Notes under the pieces: model-generated
What the model was told of the DNA's origin: nothing
The model's database searches: none
The model's input: only the letters and a program-made list of their open reading frames with translations
Made by a program: the position numbers and the translations under genes
Shown here: piece after piece, positions 8,653 through 32,600 of the stretch
Layout: every line of letters starts with the position of its first letter
How positions within the stretch are numbered: position 1 is the stretch's first letter
Source: a virus
Length of the DNA stretch: 40,657 nt
Strand: one strand, 5' to 3'
Virus record (IMG/VR): IMGVR_UViG_3300006165_000016
Location: 1-40,657 of that record

Positions 8653-9090
8653 ATGTTTAACCCAGCCCTCTTTATAACGTCGGTTAATTCAATAGAACTA
8701 GATCCACCAAGTAGTGCTATTGCCCACGCAAATGCTTGGGCAGATGCCTTTGCTAGTGGATATGGTATACCAACCCCTCCAACACTAACATCTGAAGCTG
8801 GAAAAGCACAAATGAAAGCTTTATTTATTGCGGCATACAATACCCCAAACCAAGGAAAAACTTTAATGAATGCTGGTGTAAGTGTATTTGCAGCAACGAT
8901 GGCGCCCGGAATGCTTCCAGCATTTGCAGCAGTACCACCAATGGGATATATGGGTTTCGACCTATTAACATTAGCTAATTCAAAAACCTCTGGAACATTA
9001 GGCCCAGCATTAGCAGCAACAACAACCCCATGGTTTATGTCGGGTCTAGCAGTAAATGTATCTAGTGGTGTAACGATTCCCTGGTCGTAA
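8653..9090 (+). CDS. unknown Ala/Pro-rich hydrophobic phage protein
   Basis: The 145-residue product starts 5 bases after the spike-tip gene stops, with no obvious ribosome binding site, so it is probably translated by coupling. It is rich in Ala, Pro, Gly and Met with no charged clusters: a helical N-terminal half with many Ala, then a hydrophobic Pro/Gly-rich stretch at about 75-100, and a C-terminus ending Ile-Pro-Trp-Ser. There is no signal peptide. The hydrophobic part is broken by Pro and Gly and does not make a clean membrane helix. Its position between the spike tip and the baseplate wedge genes makes a virion or assembly role likely. I do not recognise the family, and PAAR-repeat features are absent. 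Confidence 0.7.
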   Translation: MFNPALFITSVNSIELDPPSSAIAHANAWADAFASGYGIPTPPTLTSEAGKAQMKALFIAAYNTPNQGKTLMNAGVSVFAATMAPGMLPAFAAVPPMGYMGFDLLTLANSKTSGTLGPALAATTTPWFMSGLAVNVSSGVTIPWS

Positions 9091-9111
9091 CATATAATTG
9101 TATACTCTTTA

Positions 9112-9119
9112 TATTTATA
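9112..9119 (+). promoter_or_regulatory. TATTTATA boundary motif, candidate late promoter
   Basis: TTTATATTTATATAACG sits in the 65-base gap between 9090 and 9156. The distance to the ATG (about 36 bases) is longer than at 920 or 8258. An AAAGGAGAAAA ribosome binding site lies just before the start codon. Confidence 0.5.
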
Positions 9120-9155
9120 TAACGTATAATAGTATTATACCAAAGGAGAAAAAGT

Positions 9156-9623
9156 ATGAAAAAATCTATATTAGTAAAAATTATAAAGGATGCAGTTAGA
9201 GAAGTTGTCCGAGAAGAAGTCAAAGCTGCCATAAATGAAGAGTTGGATATTAAAAAACCATCTACAACTACTGAATTTTCAAATGTTATGAGTCATGCTG
9301 AAGATTTATTTAATCCAAAAGAAACAAGTAAATCATCGTTTGCAAAAAACCCAGTATTAAATGCTGCACTAAACGAAACAGCCGATTCTTGGAAAACAAT
9401 GGGTAACAAAACACTAAAGGGGTCAGATGCTGGTGGTGGAAGGACAGGTTTAGCAGCTATAATGGGAATGCAATCTCCAGACCAAACATTTGGTGGAAAA
9501 CCAACAGCCCAACAAATGATACCAAACGATAGAAAACACATAGAAGTACCTCAAGAAGTAGAAAAAGCCTTAACAAGAGATTATAGCGATCTAATGAAGG
9601 TGATAAACAAAAAAGGTAAATAA
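9156..9623 (+). CDS. unknown phage protein with charged N-terminal helix
   Basis: The 155-residue protein begins with a strongly charged amphipathic helix (about residues 1-32, alternating Lys/Arg/Glu with Val/Ile), likely a coiled coil. A Ser/Thr/Asn/Lys-rich middle and a Gly-rich segment at about 90-110 follow. There are no Cys residues, membrane segments or catalytic motifs that I recognise. The strong AAAGGAG ribosome binding site and the TATTTATA motif upstream suggest it starts a well-expressed unit. It abuts the methyltransferase gene with no gap: its TAA is followed directly by ATG. A capsid, tail or scaffold-like role would fit but nothing proves it. Confidence 0.7.
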   Translation: MKKSILVKIIKDAVREVVREEVKAAINEELDIKKPSTTTEFSNVMSHAEDLFNPKETSKSSFAKNPVLNAALNETADSWKTMGNKTLKGSDAGGGRTGLAAIMGMQSPDQTFGGKPTAQQMIPNDRKHIEVPQEVEKALTRDYSDLMKVINKKGK

Positions 9624-10277
9624 ATGGATTTAATGACACAAATAGCAAACGATAAAGATTGTAAGACAGATAAAGTAGGTAGATATTTGAATTTTTACAA
9701 TTCAATATTTCAATCAAAAAGAACCAAATATAAAAAGGTTTGCGAAATTGGTGTCTATAAAGGACAGTCTATAAAATTATGGCTAGAATATTTTCCTGAA
9801 GCACAAGTATATGCTATTGACTGTGTTGAAAAATTTTACAAACAATTACCAAAACATGACCGCGTAACTGGTTTTTTTGGAGATTCCCGTGTAAAAACAG
9901 GTGCTGGAGAAAATAATGCATTAGGTATGGCTGAATTTGAAACTAAGTGTGGAAAAGATTTTGATTTTATTTTAGATGATGGTACCCATAAGACATGTGC
10001 AATACAACAATCACTTGCTTCACTTTTCCCACTTGTAAAATCAGGAGGATGGTATATAATTGAAGATATCGCAGCATGTATGAGAAAAGATGGTTGTGCA
10101 TCAAAAGTAGATGGTAGTGATAGAATAAATACCGCTTTAGATGTTTTGAAAGAAACCGGCAAAATGGGAAAAACAGCAATACATATGTCCCATGAAGAAA
10201 TAGAATATGTTGAAAATAATACGGATAGAGTAGTTTGGCACCCAAATAAAACTGCCTGCGCAATAAGAAAAAAATAA
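9624..10277 (+). CDS. class I SAM-dependent methyltransferase (macrocin/MycE O-methyltransferase-like)
   Basis: The 217-residue product has the Rossmann methyltransferase signature. Motif I is Glu41-Ile-Gly-Val-Tyr-Lys-Gly47 followed by Gln-Ser. Asp66 ends strand 2 and should hold the ribose of S-adenosylmethionine. The acidic motif Leu-Asp-Asp-Gly-Thr-His covers 117-122, and Gly-Gly-Trp-Tyr-Ile-Ile-Glu-Asp follows near 140-147. The DDG(T/S)H and GG-x-x-x-IED pattern is typical of sugar or small-molecule O-methyltransferases such as MycE/demethylmacrocin enzymes, not of DNA methyltransferases. There is no Asn/Asp-Pro-Pro-Tyr motif, which argues against adenine-N6 activity. It sits between a small unknown gene (0-base gap) and gp25 (6-base gap), inside the baseplate operon. 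The substrate is unknown; a virion glycan, a host cell-surface sugar or a structural protein are possible. Confidence 0.85.
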   Translation: MDLMTQIANDKDCKTDKVGRYLNFYNSIFQSKRTKYKKVCEIGVYKGQSIKLWLEYFPEAQVYAIDCVEKFYKQLPKHDRVTGFFGDSRVKTGAGENNALGMAEFETKCGKDFDFILDDGTHKTCAIQQSLASLFPLVKSGGWYIIEDIAACMRKDGCASKVDGSDRINTALDVLKETGKMGKTAIHMSHEEIEYVENNTDRVVWHPNKTACAIRKK

Positions 10278-25116: not shown

Positions 25117-25518
25117 ATGGCTAGAAAAAAATCTAAAACCAGAGCAAACGCAATAAAGCACGGTTATAGGTCAGGTTTTGAACATACTGTATCAGAAAAA
25201 TTAACAGAATCTAAAATTGATTTTAGTTATGAAACTACAGTAATACAATACATTAAACCCCAAACCAATCACAAATATACCGTAGATTTTACACTACCAA
25301 ATGGAATTCTTATAGAAACAAAGGGTAGGTGGGTTATGGAAGATAGAAAGAAACATATTCTAATAAAAGACCAACATCCCGAATTAGATATTAGAATAGT
25401 TTTTCAAAATCCAAAGGGCAAAATCCGAAAAGGAAGTAAAACAACATATGCAGATTACTGTGATAAACATGGAATATTGTGGGCTGAAAAACAAATTCCA
25501 CAAGAATGGCTAAAATAA
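25117..25518 (+). CDS. T7 endonuclease I-like Holliday junction resolvase
   Basis: The 133-residue protein matches T7 gp3 (149 residues) along its length. The catalytic set is present: Glu22 in Arg-Ser-Gly-Phe-Glu, Asp57 in Tyr-Thr-Val-Asp-Phe, and Glu67 and Lys69 in Ile-Glu-Thr-Lys-Gly. The stretch Asp-Arg-Lys-Lys-His-Ile-Leu-Ile-Lys-Asp-Gln-His-Pro-Glu-Leu-Asp-Ile-Arg is close to T7. The enzyme forms a domain-swapped dimer that cuts four-way and branched DNA, freeing replicated DNA for packaging. T4 itself uses the unrelated endonuclease VII (gp49), so this is a different solution in a T4-like gene setting. It starts 12 bases after a structural gene, so it may be expressed late. It heads the DNA-metabolism island. 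Confidence 0.95.
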   Translation: MARKKSKTRANAIKHGYRSGFEHTVSEKLTESKIDFSYETTVIQYIKPQTNHKYTVDFTLPNGILIETKGRWVMEDRKKHILIKDQHPELDIRIVFQNPKGKIRKGSKTTYADYCDKHGILWAEKQIPQEWLK

Positions 25519-25553
25519 TTTTTTTATTTGAAATATTTTTCTTATATTAAACT

Positions 25554-26471
25554 ATGAATAAGTTAAGATTAGTCCAACTACTAGAATCAATTCTTTCTAA
25601 GGGTAGTTTTAATACCCAAAGTAGTGAAATAACATTTTATTGTCCATTCTGCACCCACCATAAGAAAAAGTTAAATATAAATTTAATAAGTGAAAAGTGG
25701 CATTGTTGGGTTTGTGGAATAGGTGGCCACAAGATATTTGGATTATTTAAGAAATTAAAGGTCCATGCAAAATATTTTAATGAATTATCAAAAATAACTG
25801 GAAAAACTAATTCCAATATTAGTAATAAAGATTATGATTTTGTAACCCTTCCTCAAGAATTTATTCAATTGTCTAAATCAAATAAAAAATTACCAGAAGT
25901 AAAAAATGCATTATATTATTTGAAAAAAAGAGGAATAGATTATATAGATATTTTGAAATACAATATTGGTATATGTGAAAAAGGAAAGTATAGTGGAATG
26001 ATTATTATACCAAGTTATGATAAAAATGGAAACTTAAATTTTTTTACTGGTCGAAGTTATTATGATGTTGCATTCAAACATTTAAATCCAACTGTATCAA
26101 AAGATATTATAGGATTTGAATTGTTTATAAATTGGAATGAACCTATTACAATAGTAGAAGGAGCCTTTGACGCAATTGCTGTAAAACGAAATGCAATTCC
26201 ATTATTTGGTAAAATAATTCCAGATTCATTAAAAATGAAAATTTTAGATGAAAAAGTTAATAGAATAAATATTGCTTTAGATAAAGATGCATTTAAGAAC
26301 GCATTAGAGATGGCAGAATATTTTATGTCCTATGGCCTATCGGTTTCTTTTATAGAATTACCAGAAAAAGACCCATCTGATTTAGGATTTGATAAAATAA
26401 CAAATATATTAAATAATTCTAATATATTAAGTAACCAAAAGATACTGGAGTATAAAATAAATGAATATTAA
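25554..26471 (+). CDS. DnaG-type DNA primase (zinc finger plus TOPRIM)
   Basis: The 305-residue product has a CHC2-like zinc-binding domain (Cys30-x2-Cys33 with nearby His35/His36, then Cys51-x2-Cys54). A linker containing Tyr-Leu-Lys-Lys-Arg-Gly-Ile follows. The TOPRIM core has Val-Glu202-Gly-Ala-Phe-Asp-Ala at 201-207 and Asp243-Lys-Asp245, the metal-binding acid and DxD pair. It lacks any helicase domain, so it acts as a stand-alone primase like T4 gp61 and needs a separate helicase partner, not seen in this window. There is no evident ribosome binding site before the ATG; the 35-base gap upstream is extremely AT-rich and has no TATTTATA copy. Its last 11 bases overlap the SbcDC fusion. 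Confidence 0.9.
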   Translation: MNKLRLVQLLESILSKGSFNTQSSEITFYCPFCTHHKKKLNINLISEKWHCWVCGIGGHKIFGLFKKLKVHAKYFNELSKITGKTNSNISNKDYDFVTLPQEFIQLSKSNKKLPEVKNALYYLKKRGIDYIDILKYNIGICEKGKYSGMIIIPSYDKNGNLNFFTGRSYYDVAFKHLNPTVSKDIIGFELFINWNEPITIVEGAFDAIAVKRNAIPLFGKIIPDSLKMKILDEKVNRINIALDKDAFKNALEMAEYFMSYGLSVSFIELPEKDPSDLGFDKITNILNNSNILSNQKILEYKINEY

Positions 26472-29400
26472 CATTGATTTTGACAAAGTAGAAAAAATTC
26501 TACATATAGCTGATATACACATTAGAAACTATAAGCGACACAAGGAATATAGGCAAGTATTTAGAAAATTATATAAGGAGGCCAGAACTCTTCCTAAAAA
26601 TAGTTTAATTTATGTTGGTGGAGATATTGTCCATACAAAAACAGATATTAGTCCAGAGCTAGTTCAAATTGTTAGCGAATTCTTAAATAGACTAGCAAAT
26701 ATTAGACCAACAATAGTTATCGCTGGAAATCACGATGCAAATCTAAATAACAAATCTAGGTTAGATGCTCTATCTCCAATAATAGAAAATTTAGCCAATG
26801 AAAACTTATATTATCTTAGAGACAGTGGAATATATAATATTGCTAATATAGACTTTATAGTATATTCAATTTTAGATGAACCAGAAGAATGGCCAAATGC
26901 AAAAGATTCATCATCAAAAAATAAAATAGGCCTATTCCACGGAGCAGTAAATAATTCTAAAACTGATGCTGGATATACTGTTCGAGATGAAAGCCTCCCA
27001 TTAAAAACCTTTAGTGGTTGTCATATGGTAATGCTTGGTGATATTCATAAATACCAATACTTAAATAAGGCTGAAACTTTTGCATATGCCGGATCAATGA
27101 TACAACAAAACTTTGGAGAAACATTTGAAAACCATGGATATGTTATTTGGGATGTTGAAACTAGAAAATCTGAATTTTTTAATATTCATAATGATTATGG
27201 GTATTATACATTAAGAGTAAAGGATGGAATACTTCCAAACATTGATAACATTCCAAAATATCCAAGGCTAAGATTCATAACAGAAAATACTACCCAGGCC
27301 CAAATAAAAGAAATGTTAATTGAAATTAGAAAAAAATGCAAGGTTCATGATTTCGTAGCAATAAAGGCAGATAAGCTTGCCAATATGTCAAACAATTCTA
27401 GGGGAAGTATAGCTATAACAAAAGATATACGAGATTCAGAGTACCAAAATAAACTTATAGAAGAACACTTAGAAAGAAACTTTCCAATAGTCGATGATGC
27501 CATATTAAAAAGAATAAGAAATATAAATAGAGACCTAAATAAACTTTTACCAGATGTAGAAATTGGTAGAAATATAAATTGGAAACCAAAGAAATTTGAA
27601 TTTTCAAACATGTTTAGTTATGGCGAAAACAATTCTATAAATTTTAATAATATGTCAGGAGCTATTGGTATATTTGCAGAAAATCATGCTGGTAAATCTG
27701 CTATTTTAGACGCTTTAGCATATTGTATTTTTGATAAATGTTCTAGAACTAAAATGGCAGCTGCTGTAATAAACAATAAGAAAAATAATTTTACTTGCAA
27801 ATTAAATTTTGAAATAGATGGGGTAGATTACTTTATTGAAAGAACAGGTAAACGAAAAAAAGATGGAGGAGCAAGGGTAGATGTTGATTTTTGGATGATT
27901 GGAGAAGATGGAAACCCAATATCCTTAAATGGAGACCAACGTGTATATACAAATAAAAATATTAGAGGTTATCTTGGAAATTATGAAGATTTCGAACTAA
28001 CAACTCTATCAGTACAAAATAACAATACAGGGTTTATAGACAAAACCCAAACAGAAAAAAAAGATTTACTAGCTCAATTTTTAGATATTAGTGTATTTGA
28101 AGAGTTATATAATTACGCAAACGAAGAAATAAAAGACGTACAGGTACTTCTAAAAGATTTTAAGAATACTGATTTTTCTCAAAAATTACATGAAGAAACA
28201 GTTTTACAGGAAGAATTAAAATCAACATATTCAACCATAGAAAAACAAAGAATTAAGTTATTAAAAAGTGAAAAAGTTGTAAATAAAAAGATTATAGAAT
28301 ATACGTCTAAGGTAATACAACTAGACCCTGAAGTACCAGATAGTGTAGAAACACTAGAATCCGATGCAAAAGTAATAATATTAGATATTAAGGCAGAATC
28401 AGAAAAATTAGAAAAATATGAAACATATACTGAAGAAAATAAAGTAGAGTTTCTCGAAATATCTAAAAATATAAAGGAATATAATAGAAAAAAAATAGAG
28501 ACTGATTCTAATAGAAATACTCAAGTAGAAACTTTATTACAAAAACTTAATCATGAAATAGAAATGATGAAGGTAAAGGTTAAGAATAAATTGGACACTG
28601 TTAATCAACTCCACTCCCATGAATATGATCCAGATTGTGAATTTTGCTGTGATAATTCTTTTGTAAAGTCAGCTGAAAAAGCCAAACAAGAATTACCAAA
28701 ATTAAAATTAGAAACTGAAAAATTATTAGAATCTAAGTTAACCTTAAAGAAAGAGTTAGAACAATTAAAAGATTCTGTTGGACAAGGATTTTTATTAACC
28801 AAGTTAGATTCAAAACTTTCTTTAATAAAACAATATCAATCTGAAATAAAAATAAAAACTATAACTAGAAAATCCAACATAACTAAAAAAGAATTAAATC
28901 AAAAACACATTAAGTCTTTAATAGAAAAATATTATCAAAACAAGCGGTCTATAATTTCAAATAATAAAATAAATGAAAATATAATTAAAAAAGATTTAGA
29001 ATTAGAAGTCATCCAACAAAATCTATCAGATATAAATTCTAAATTACAAACTGCATATAGTAATATTAGTGTTTGCCAAAAAACAATAGAAAATATTTTA
29101 GAATCTATAGAAAGAGCCCACGATTTAGAAGAAAGATTAAGGGCATATGAATATTATCTTAATGCAATACAGCGAGATGGAGTACCATATGAACTTATTT
29201 CAGAAATATTACCATATGTAGAAGAAGAAGTTAATTTAATTCTTTCACAAATAACAGATTTTTCAATACAATTCGAAACTGACGGCCGAAACATAAATAC
29301 TTTTATTGTATATGGTGAAGAAGAAAAATGGGCCCTAGAAATGACATCTGGAATGGAAAAGTTTGTTAGTTCCCTTGCAATAAGGGTTGCCCTAATAAAT

Positions 29401-29616
29401 GTTTCAAATTTACCAAGGCCAAACTTTTTAGCAATTGATGAAGGATTTGGAAACTTAGATTCTAATAATCTTAATTCAATATTTTCATTGTTTGACTATC
29501 TAAAATTGAATTTTGATTTTATGATTGTCATTTCCCATATAGATTTAATGAAAGATGCAACAGATAACCTTTTAGAGATAAATCAATCCAAAGGATATAG
29601 TCAAATAGTGTACTAA
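26461..29616 (+). CDS. single-chain SbcD-SbcC (gp47-gp46, Mre11-Rad50) recombination nuclease
   Basis: This 1051-residue protein joins two subunits that are separate in T4 (gp47, 339 residues; gp46, 560). Residues 1-340 are a calcineurin-like nuclease: Asp18-Ile-His20, Gly-Gly-Asp55, Gly-Asn90-His91-Asp92, His160 and Gly-Asp194-Ile-His196 supply the two-metal site. From about 378 the ABC ATPase begins. Its Walker A is Ala406-Glu-Asn-His-Ala-Gly411-Lys412-Ser413, with Ala where the first Gly is usual. Long coiled-coil arms flank a zinc hook Cys726-Glu-Phe-Cys729. The signature is Ser963-Gly-Met-Glu-Lys, Walker B Phe-Leu-Ala-Ile-Asp993-Glu994, D-loop near Asn-Leu-Asp1000 and switch His1026. The complex resects and processes DNA ends for recombination-dependent replication. 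The frame is unbroken from nuclease to ATPase, so this is a real fusion. It overlaps the primase gene by 11 bases. Confidence 0.95.
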   Translation: MNINIDFDKVEKILHIADIHIRNYKRHKEYRQVFRKLYKEARTLPKNSLIYVGGDIVHTKTDISPELVQIVSEFLNRLANIRPTIVIAGNHDANLNNKSRLDALSPIIENLANENLYYLRDSGIYNIANIDFIVYSILDEPEEWPNAKDSSSKNKIGLFHGAVNNSKTDAGYTVRDESLPLKTFSGCHMVMLGDIHKYQYLNKAETFAYAGSMIQQNFGETFENHGYVIWDVETRKSEFFNIHNDYGYYTLRVKDGILPNIDNIPKYPRLRFITENTTQAQIKEMLIEIRKKCKVHDFVAIKADKLANMSNNSRGSIAITKDIRDSEYQNKLIEEHLERNFPIVDDAILKRIRNINRDLNKLLPDVEIGRNINWKPKKFEFSNMFSYGENNSINFNNMSGAIGIFAENHAGKSAILDALAYCIFDKCSRTKMAAAVINNKKNNFTCKLNFEIDGVDYFIERTGKRKKDGGARVDVDFWMIGEDGNPISLNGDQRVYTNKNIRGYLGNYEDFELTTLSVQNNNTGFIDKTQTEKKDLLAQFLDISVFEELYNYANEEIKDVQVLLKDFKNTDFSQKLHEETVLQEELKSTYSTIEKQRIKLLKSEKVVNKKIIEYTSKVIQLDPEVPDSVETLESDAKVIILDIKAESEKLEKYETYTEENKVEFLEISKNIKEYNRKKIETDSNRNTQVETLLQKLNHEIEMMKVKVKNKLDTVNQLHSHEYDPDCEFCCDNSFVKSAEKAKQELPKLKLETEKLLESKLTLKKELEQLKDSVGQGFLLTKLDSKLSLIKQYQSEIKIKTITRKSNITKKELNQKHIKSLIEKYYQNKRSIISNNKINENIIKKDLELEVIQQNLSDINSKLQTAYSNISVCQKTIENILESIERAHDLEERLRAYEYYLNAIQRDGVPYELISEILPYVEEEVNLILSQITDFSIQFETDGRNINTFIVYGEEEKWALEMTSGMEKFVSSLAIRVALINVSNLPRPNFLAIDEGFGNLDSNNLNSIFSLFDYLKLNFDFMIVISHIDLMKDATDNLLEINQSKGYSQIVY

Positions 29617-29633
29617 ATCACACGTTAAACTGA

Positions 29634-29641
29634 TATTTATA
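29634..29641 (+). promoter_or_regulatory. TATTTATA boundary motif, candidate late promoter
   Basis: TGATATTTATATATTGAT fills the 50-base gap between the SbcDC fusion and the long fibre gene, ending 25 bases before the ATG at 29667. A TTAGGAG ribosome binding site follows. The position marks the return from DNA-metabolism genes to structural genes. Confidence 0.57.
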
Positions 29642-29666
29642 TATTGATAGTTTAGGAGTTTTTCAT

Positions 29667-32600
29667 ATGGCAAAAATATTAAGATTTGATGAACCATCAG
29701 AGTTCACACCACTAACATATAGGGGATTGGATACTCTTCCAGTTTACATTGTTGAAGAGGGAGGTACCTCATACGATTATTTCGGATTTACAGAAATACC
29801 AGATGAATTAAACGCTGGTAGAAATCTGTTGGCCCTAACGGGTACAAAAAATCTTGTTCCAGGTTCTGAAATTGCAATAGAGGTATTAAATGCTAATGGT
29901 GAGTTAATACCTGTTAAAACATTTGACCATATTGGATTTGGAAACCGTAGGGTATTCGCAATAGAAGTAAACGAAAAAGTACCTGAAGGAGATGCTGTAA
30001 TTACTGTTGTTGGTACAGCTAAAGGTAAGGTTGGTTTTAACTCAGAAGGAGGTAGAGACAATTCACAACCAATGCCTAGAAACTATTCTGGTCGATTTAA
30101 TATACGTTGGCAAAAAAGATTAAATTGTTATCCAAGAAAAAGAAATACTTCTGATGTTGTATTTTTCCCAAATCCAGATATAACTATAGAAGAAATAAAA
30201 AGACCCTATTGGAAATTAGATTATAATTCAAGACTAACATCATCATACACAAATTTAGAACACAATCAGGCAGCAGAATTTACGTTGGTTTCAGATTCTT
30301 CAATATCAGATACAGGGTTTCAAAATACTTCTGCAAGTTTAAGATATGAAGTAGAAGGAAATAAATACTTTATTTTTGCAAACGATGAACCAGATTTTGG
30401 TGGATTTACAGATGATATGATTGGAGGAACTATATTGTTTCCTAATCCTGTAGGAGTATATCCAAAATCAACAAATGGTCCCTATGCCCCACCAGTTTAT
30501 AATGAATTAGAAGATGGAGATGGAACAGGTGTATTGGATACTGGTTCATTATCAGCACAATATTCTAATCAAGGGGCATATAGTACATATATTATAGAAA
30601 GATTATCTCCATTACAACTTAGAGTAAATAGTCCTCACACAACAATGCAGGGCCAAGGAAGAAATAATCAAAAAGAGATTTTCCACCGTACTTTTGCACC
30701 TAGTGATTTTAGACTAGATTGGGGACAAGACCCCATATTAAAAACAGACTCTTTAATGAGTGCATCCTCAAACCCAGATGATAAGTTTTATACTTCATAT
30801 GCATATATACAATTTAATAATTTAACACCAATTGCTGGTGATATTACTAGAATAAAAACATATATTAGAAACGACCAAACAACAAATGATTTTCATTTAG
30901 TTGGTGATAATCCAGTATTTTCTCCTGAATTATTGGTACAATCTCAATCGCTAAGAACAAGGTTTCCAGCTGGAGATTTTACTGAATTTGGTGTAAGTTC
31001 ATCGTTATTTGAATATTGGGAAGGTGCAGCTAATACAGGTGCAACCATAAATAATCCTGAACTAATAATATATAAGATGAGTACTGGAAATGTTGCAACT
31101 CCAATACGAGAATCCTTACAGGTAGGCCTACTAAATACAGCAACTGGCCTACAAACAACTAGTGATTATTGGTTGGTAAAATCAACGGTTGATATTGAAT
31201 TCAGAGAAAATCAATATTACGAAATCTCATTTAAGTCTTATGCTATAAAAACCCCTCCAAATGGTCCATCCCCAGAAATGCATGTATATATGCATGGACC
31301 AGCTGTAAATTCTACTGGTGATGTTGATGGAAAACTAATAGGAACAATAAATGGTATTGAAAATAATGAATTGGTTGTTTCTGAAGACCCACTAAACTTT
31401 AATATTCAAGGTGGTAATAAATTTACTTTCAAGGCCGATGCAACTGAATTTGCAAGATTAAGATTCAAAATTATTTCAGGATTATGGTATATAGCAGATA
31501 TATCTGTTAAACCATATGACCATTTTGGATATACTCCCCATTATTTTGATACAATAATACCAACAATAAAGGGTAATGTCGGAGAAAAAGATGCATTAGA
31601 TTTTAGGTTTGAGTTTTATAATGATGACCATAGAAAAGCTGCATATACATCTGAAATTAAAAATGTAGAATTTGATAATGAATTTACATTCACAGCAACA
31701 AGTGTATTTTTTAATAGTGCTAGTATAGATACCTTTTTTGGTAATACCCCAATAGGAGATAATGATTGGGTTAAAACCCATTATAGTTCAGCCCTATTAG
31801 CACATGAAATGCCAGAATTATCTGAAAGCATTTATCACATAGGTAATGTTGGAATAGGAGAATTCTCTGCATCCTTTGTTAATTATCCGTTACAAATAAA
31901 GAAGGGTCCAGCTGAGGGTAACGCAACGATTAGACTAGACTCTTATTCCTCATCAATACTCCATTTGGCTGCAGATATTGGTGGAACAGCCCCGACAAGT
32001 AAAAGTGCACAAATATTATTTGACCATAATAATGCTGCAACTTCATCTATTATTGGTTATACCGATATAGCAGATACAGATCCTGGTGGCGCAACAATGG
32101 ATGGCGCCTCAAAGGGCGGATTCACAATACACGAAAGACACGGTAGAATAATGAATTTAGGTGTTGGTGGATATTCCAGATTTCATTTAGTTACAGGAAA
32201 AAGTTCAGACTACAGAAACGCTGGATCACATGCAACATTTATAGGTTATAGAAATCCAAAACCTGGCGATTTTGAATATGAATTACATATTTCTGGTAGT
32301 GAAATAATAAATAGTGGTTCTATTTATTTACCAGATGCCCCAATAGATAATTCAGCAACATATGCAGCAGTAATACATTCAACAAAGGGTAGAGTTGGAA
32401 AACGACTATTATCAGATTTAACTGGGGATGATGATTGGCATATAGCAGCTACATATATAACACAATCAAGAATAGGAAGTCATGGAAAAACTATATGGAT
32501 AGGTGATGGATTAGTTACTACTGGTTTAACTCCAACATCCTATATATTTCAAATTTCACAAAGTACATCTAGTCCAAAGGTTAGATTAGAAGGTATACCA

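Follow-up and report, generated by a model that had tools for sequence, protein, structure and literature searches.

The SbcDC protein encoded in a 40.7-kb stretch of viral DNA, referred to here as the window, joins the SbcD (Mre11) nuclease and the SbcC (Rad50) ATPase in one polypeptide of 1051 residues. It is a member of the already known fusions of the Mimivirus R555 type, which are widespread in large phages, and very probably constitutes a phage single-chain Mre11-Rad50 machine (SbcCD; gp47-gp46 in T4) for DNA-end processing. The covalent link between SbcD and SbcC is not obligatory, as in related phages the chain is divided again within SbcD. Compared with the description of such fusions in 2011, both this re-split branch and the breadth of the phage clade are apparently new, as far as the literature was searched.

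The fused gene occupies positions 26461..29616 of the plus strand as one unbroken frame, as the initial annotation had claimed. The ORF has an ATG start, and its product matches both subunits in Pfam and PHROG. With this single ORF, nuclease and ATPase do not lie on separate polypeptides. The Pfam Metallophos model aligns with residues 12-198 (PF00149, E 2.7e-13) and the SbcC Walker B model with residues 960-1011 (PF13558), while PHROG families assign residues 11-303 to SbcD-like (7e-29) and residues 371-1050 to SbcC-like proteins (2e-41). Searches with phmmer against solved structures match archaeal Rad50, E. coli SbcC, and Mre11. Directly upstream on the same strand, and overlapping the fused ORF by 11 bases, lies a DnaG-type primase gene (25554..26471; phrog_47, E 3.5e-35), and the same DNA-processing cluster contains a phage endonuclease I of the T7 gp3 type (25117..25518, plus strand; PF05367, E 8e-55).

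The domains follow each other on the plus strand in the order nuclease-ATPase. The phosphoesterase core of Mre11/SbcD comprises residues 10-241 (26488..27183), as delimited by the PF00149 match, the invariant columns, and a structure model, and is followed by the cap domain (residues 246-303; 27196..27369), modeled as beta-beta-alpha-beta. The Rad50-binding helix-loop-helix of Mre11 spans residues 326-361 (27436..27543), with model helices at 326-340 and 346-361 and a conserved YQNxLI pattern. A linker of 12 residues (362-373; 27544..27579), placed by the model, leads to the N-terminal half of the SbcC/Rad50 ATPase (residues 374-541; 27580..28083), which was assigned by structure alignment and holds the Walker A motif (27676-27699). 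Long model helices form the coiled coil (residues 544-903; 28090..29169), interrupted by the CxxC zinc hook (C726-E-F-C729; 28636..28647), whose C726 is invariant in the alignments. The C-terminal half of the ATPase (29182..29613) carries the PF13558 match together with SGMEK (963-967), the Walker B/D-loop region (989-1000), and the switch H1026.

The AlphaFold model of the window chain, built on an alignment of 45 relatives (mean pLDDT 82.6, pTM 0.47), is that of a single chain in which the domain layout is readable; with this low pTM, it does not show how both halves pack together. It places the core at residues 12-241 and the ATPase from residue 373 onward, with a poorly predicted segment at 305-318. 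The nuclease part matches the Mre11/SbcD chains 3thn and 6s6v_B, and the fold from residue 374 on matches PDB chains of E. coli SbcC and archaeal Rad50 (Z about 30). In VIA-align, model residue 374 pairs with the first residue of E. coli SbcC (7yzo_D, Z 31.4, rmsd 3.1, 347 aligned), and the junction therefore lies exactly at the SbcC N-terminus. This agrees with the nuclease-then-ATPase order and the junction near residues 345-380 that had been read from the DNA at the outset.

Because sbcD and sbcC are usually adjacent in this same order, one lost stop would be enough to fuse them, and the frame could reflect an assembly or sequencing artefact in which a missed stop or a frameshift joins two neighboring genes. 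The chance of this is practically nil, and an assembly artefact can be ruled out, since independent contigs carry the same unbroken fusion. The search for other single-chain SbcDC proteins, which had been recommended together with a check of the junction in independent assemblies, yielded 85 distinct fused sequences from IMG/VR and named phages. They come from many metagenomes and a complete phage genome, that of Mel-JY01, and share the same length and frame; all complete relatives are single uninterrupted frames and none is broken at the junction, the exceptions (L049 and L046) being degraded or broken elsewhere. The family motif IQ[QH]NFGE was found in at least 580 IMG/VR stretches encoding relatives, and the best 80 of them, which were inspected, are all fused. 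A primase homologue is present in 98 of the 104 fused loci and lies directly upstream in 95, again at odds with a chance joining. Purifying selection also runs continuously across the junction: when the window is compared with near relatives, dN/dS is about 0.06-0.10 for the whole protein, 0.02-0.08 in the catalytic domains (0.05-0.07 in the nuclease), and about 0.04-0.06 in residues 256-375, which include the junction, with a peak of 0.20-0.26 in the coiled coil. A scan of genome contigs returned only two cellular contigs, and a DNA-level search in phages gave no match.

By its motifs, the window protein is apparently catalytically complete. All five phosphoesterase motifs are present (D18-x-H20, G54-D55, G89-N-H-D92, H160, and D194-x-H196), and so is the whole SbcC/Rad50 set, which consists of Walker A (406-413, AENHAGKS), the signature S963-G-M-E966 (SGMEK instead of SGGE), Walker B D993-E994, the D-loop to D1000, and the switch H1026. 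Among the fused relatives, D18, H20, D55, N90, H91, D92, H160, D194, and H196 of the nuclease and G411-K412, C726, G964, D993-E994, D1000, and H1026 of the ATPase are invariant or nearly so. The initial annotation was thus right in placing Walker A, zinc hook, signature, Walker B, and switch His in one frame. Its statement that all nuclease metal ligands are present holds for the motifs but not for the identity of every ligand: Asp194, in GDIH (193-196), occupies a position that is His (GHxH) in canonical Mre11/SbcD. A second substitution lies in GDIVH (54-58), where His replaces the third Asp of GDxxD.

The GDxH form, a hallmark of the fused family at the sequence level, is found in nearly all of the 85 distinct fused proteins and in all 30 proteins compared from the re-split branch described below, whereas all six canonical phage SbcD proteins compared (T4, RaK2, CBB, X1, and two SPO1-like phages) carry GHxH. 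This position corresponds to His206 of Pf Mre11. The change could affect the polarity of the nuclease or the way it uses metal. It might even be taken to mean that the nuclease is impaired and that the fused chain serves mainly as a structural DNA tether or end-protector. Such a role is improbable, given that the remaining ligands and the catalytic His are nearly or fully invariant, that the dN/dS of the nuclease stays at 0.05-0.07, and that Asp often serves as a metal ligand. The replacement is moreover old and shared, as expected of a family variant rather than of decay.

The same two substitutions, in which His replaces the third Asp of GDxxD and Asp replaces the residue equivalent to Pf Mre11 His206, are described for Mimivirus R555 (PMC3175470). 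Only the second is diagnostic of the R555 type, because canonical phage SbcD proteins also carry the GDxxD His (GDxFH). Even though the fusion had been put forward as a departure from normally separate proteins in the initial annotation, which itself named prior description and wide occurrence as evidence to the contrary, single-chain Mre11/Rad50 proteins were reported in 2011 by Yoshida, Claverie, and Ogata in Mimivirus (R555), a Bacillus phage, plasmids, and eukaryotes including algae, and many abundant aquatic homologues were argued to be phage-borne (PMC3175470). The window protein resembles R555 in that a single unbroken chain starts with Mre11 and ends with Rad50, in the retention of cap and helix-loop-helix, in both odd active-site residues, in being virus-encoded, and in its short linker, whose 12 residues lie within the 9-12 expected for such fusions (PMC3175470). 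Giant-virus members are also its best structural matches in BFVD, which assigns it to the R555 kind: full-length repair proteins of Tupanvirus, Harvfovirus, and Yasminevirus rank first among viral structures and Catovirus fifth (E 1e-55 to 1e-71), and the Tupanvirus protein shows 26% identity to the window model (E 2.9e-71). The nearest giant-virus members share 22-26% identity with it across most of its length. Unlike R555, the window protein belongs to a form found in large tailed phages, has 1051 instead of 1351 residues, and adjoins a phage primase.

Among named phages, the same fused architecture, with a primase just upstream, is found in WWT39521.1 of the Microcystis phage Mel-JY01 (41.6% identity over 99%), which is annotated as "AAA domain containing protein" and not as a fusion. 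Single-chain SbcDC proteins are also encoded by Tenacibaculum phage PTm1, Sphingomonas phage PAU, Thermus phage phiLo, Xanthomonas phage phiXF1, and the 735-kb phage LR756501, although these are strongly diverged from the window protein and range from 866 to 1318 residues. The T4 gp47/gp46 pair and the other phage SbcD/SbcC pairs (RaK2, CBB, SPO1-like) share with the window protein the two enzymes and their order and probably play the same role in recombination-dependent replication, but they are encoded by two genes, carry GHxH rather than GDxH, and form a separate clade in the trees.

In one branch of relatives, a clade of large phages here called split-cap, the chain is again divided into two proteins. 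One search set contained 30 loci with this arrangement (20 distinct protein pairs), and about 18 more belong to a group resembling locus L041. The first protein, of 261-287 residues, corresponds to residues about 10-255 of the fused chain, that is, the nuclease core alone, and the second, of about 775-803 residues, to residues about 273-1051, comprising cap, helix-loop-helix, and SbcC. In hhalign, the first 113 residues of the second protein align with the cap and helix-loop-helix of the fused chain with a probability of 95 (E 2.8e-8), against 0.5 for a nuclease control, and its predicted model shows a strand-helix-strand, two helices, and then the ATPase, the same order as in the fused protein. 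Since the second protein begins with cap and helix-loop-helix, the division lies inside SbcD and not between SbcD and SbcC. The gap between both genes mostly measures 0.2-2 kb and is usually occupied by small unrelated genes, although it reaches 3.2 kb in L042 and shrinks to 3 bases in L185, where both parts lie in the same frame with one TAA between them. An intron or intein was considered as the cause and rejected, given that there are no Rfam intron matches, that the nuclease ORF carries no extension as long as an intein, and that the genes in between are ordinary ones. No description of this arrangement was found in the literature searched outside subscription journals.

The single chain is probably ancestral to a large phage clade, in which one lineage later re-split it into the core and a cap, helix-loop-helix, and Rad50 protein. 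Trees of the whole chain, of selected conserved columns, of the nuclease alone, and of cap plus ATPase alone place split-cap as one clade inside the fused proteins (bootstrap 95-98), next to PTm1/PAU and LR756501, with the canonical pairs outside. The joint between helix-loop-helix and ATPase and the GDxH motif are common to fused and split-cap proteins and absent from canonical pairs, which makes one fusion followed by one fission the simplest account. The reverse order, in which split-cap came first and the joining of a nuclease core to a cap-SbcC protein produced the fused form, draws on AU tests that do not reject the fused proteins as one group apart from split-cap (p 0.10 and 0.29). It is nonetheless unlikely: such an ancestor needs a prior move of the cap, because the canonical two-gene outgroups carry it on SbcD, the best trees, including the nuclease-only and ATPase-only ones, nest split-cap inside the fused proteins, and the fused phiLo and phiXF1 branch outside, albeit on long branches.

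In the proposed working of the fused protein, two identical chains probably dimerize through their nuclease cores and their ATP-sandwiched ATPase heads, giving an ordinary M2R2 head. The helix-loop-helix would grip the coiled-coil base of its own chain, and zinc hooks would join the coil tips. Binding and hydrolysis of ATP would then control whether DNA ends can reach the nuclease, and the resulting 3' single strands would feed the recombination-dependent replication of the phage genome and its repair. The resection and tethering of DNA ends would be expected by likeness to T4 gp46/47 (PMC3175470). In the complete genome of Mel-JY01, the fused gene is the only strong SbcC match and the only metallophosphatase; the fused chain therefore replaces the pair there and is not a spare copy. 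The window is a fragment, and its genome may hold additional separate SbcC or SbcD genes elsewhere. The suggestion that fusion fixes a 1:1 ratio and the order of both enzymes stands insofar as there is one chain with the nuclease first. It adds little, because the separate Mre11 and Rad50 proteins already form a 2:2 complex (M2R2), and in operons the nuclease gene usually precedes the ATPase gene.

The need for two subunits to assemble makes Mre11-Rad50 difficult to study, and a compact natural single chain offers a ready-made construct. This common phage gene is hidden by automatic annotation under names such as "AAA domain" or "endonuclease subunit". Together, the fused and re-split relatives represent natural constructs for asking which contacts need a covalent connection. 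Judging by the re-split clade, the nuclease core may well be able to form a protein of its own, with cap and clamp going with the ATPase, a cut unlike the usual one; if true, this would be a naturally shifted boundary between the Mre11 and Rad50 subunits, reached by fusion and then fission.

In the window, the gene for the single-chain SbcDC protein (26461-29616), which joins the SbcD nuclease to the SbcC ATPase, lies in a DNA-processing cluster together with endonuclease I and primase (25117-29616), and this cluster is flanked by long genes that are either unassigned or encode tail fibres. The stretch from 26001 to 30000 has a G+C content of 0.28, the lowest of the whole window.

Among the relatives with a fused protein, one sub-group (loci L027, L030, L031, L033, L034, and L035) has lost the CxxC zinc hook found at the tip of the coiled coil and carries VPCG[DS]xxxxC in its place, perhaps a different metal hook or a disulphide hook. 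A fused and a split-type member are also found on two bacterial contigs, from a deltaproteobacterial MAG (L157) and a Bacteroidales MAG (L158), though both contigs may in fact come from phages and have been placed in bacterial bins.

In split-cap relatives, the nuclease core is encoded alone, and the cap, helix-loop-helix, and SbcC form a second protein. A minimal form of this split is seen in L185 (5989-9141), where one TAA divides two parts lying in the same frame, with an ATG about 9 bases beyond it. In L044 (6734-8186) and its equivalents, the parts are separated by recurrent small genes, whose products are a coiled-coil protein that has repeats of the EVPVEK type, a membrane protein of the DUF1360 family, and an uncharacterised 179-aa protein. 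In L042 the gap additionally contains a DNA methyltransferase-like ORF (8740-9702).

Two distant relatives, L049 (5974-10196; LR756508.1, a 484-kb phage) and L190 (5995-6997), have the nuclease gene broken at the same site, immediately past the GDIH metal-ligand motif, and their tails resemble each other (EEDELEKYLNSGWKLDE and DEEELERYEKMGWVIDD). Between the L049 parts lies an ORF of 305 aa, one end of which resembles TnsA, and Rfam gave no intron match at this locus. In the split-cap phage L172 (7029-10948 of a 320,934-bp contig), the SbcC half is instead broken at the ATP-binding Walker A motif, the upstream part running from NYGGK into CIKENTNITIEY and the downstream part from GIVSHN into TTMTVDLL, with a 349-aa ORF separating them. 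The Pfam family Intein_splicing matches the C-part weakly (E 0.003), and the arrangement resembles a split intein whose N-part is short and whose endonuclease gene is free-standing.
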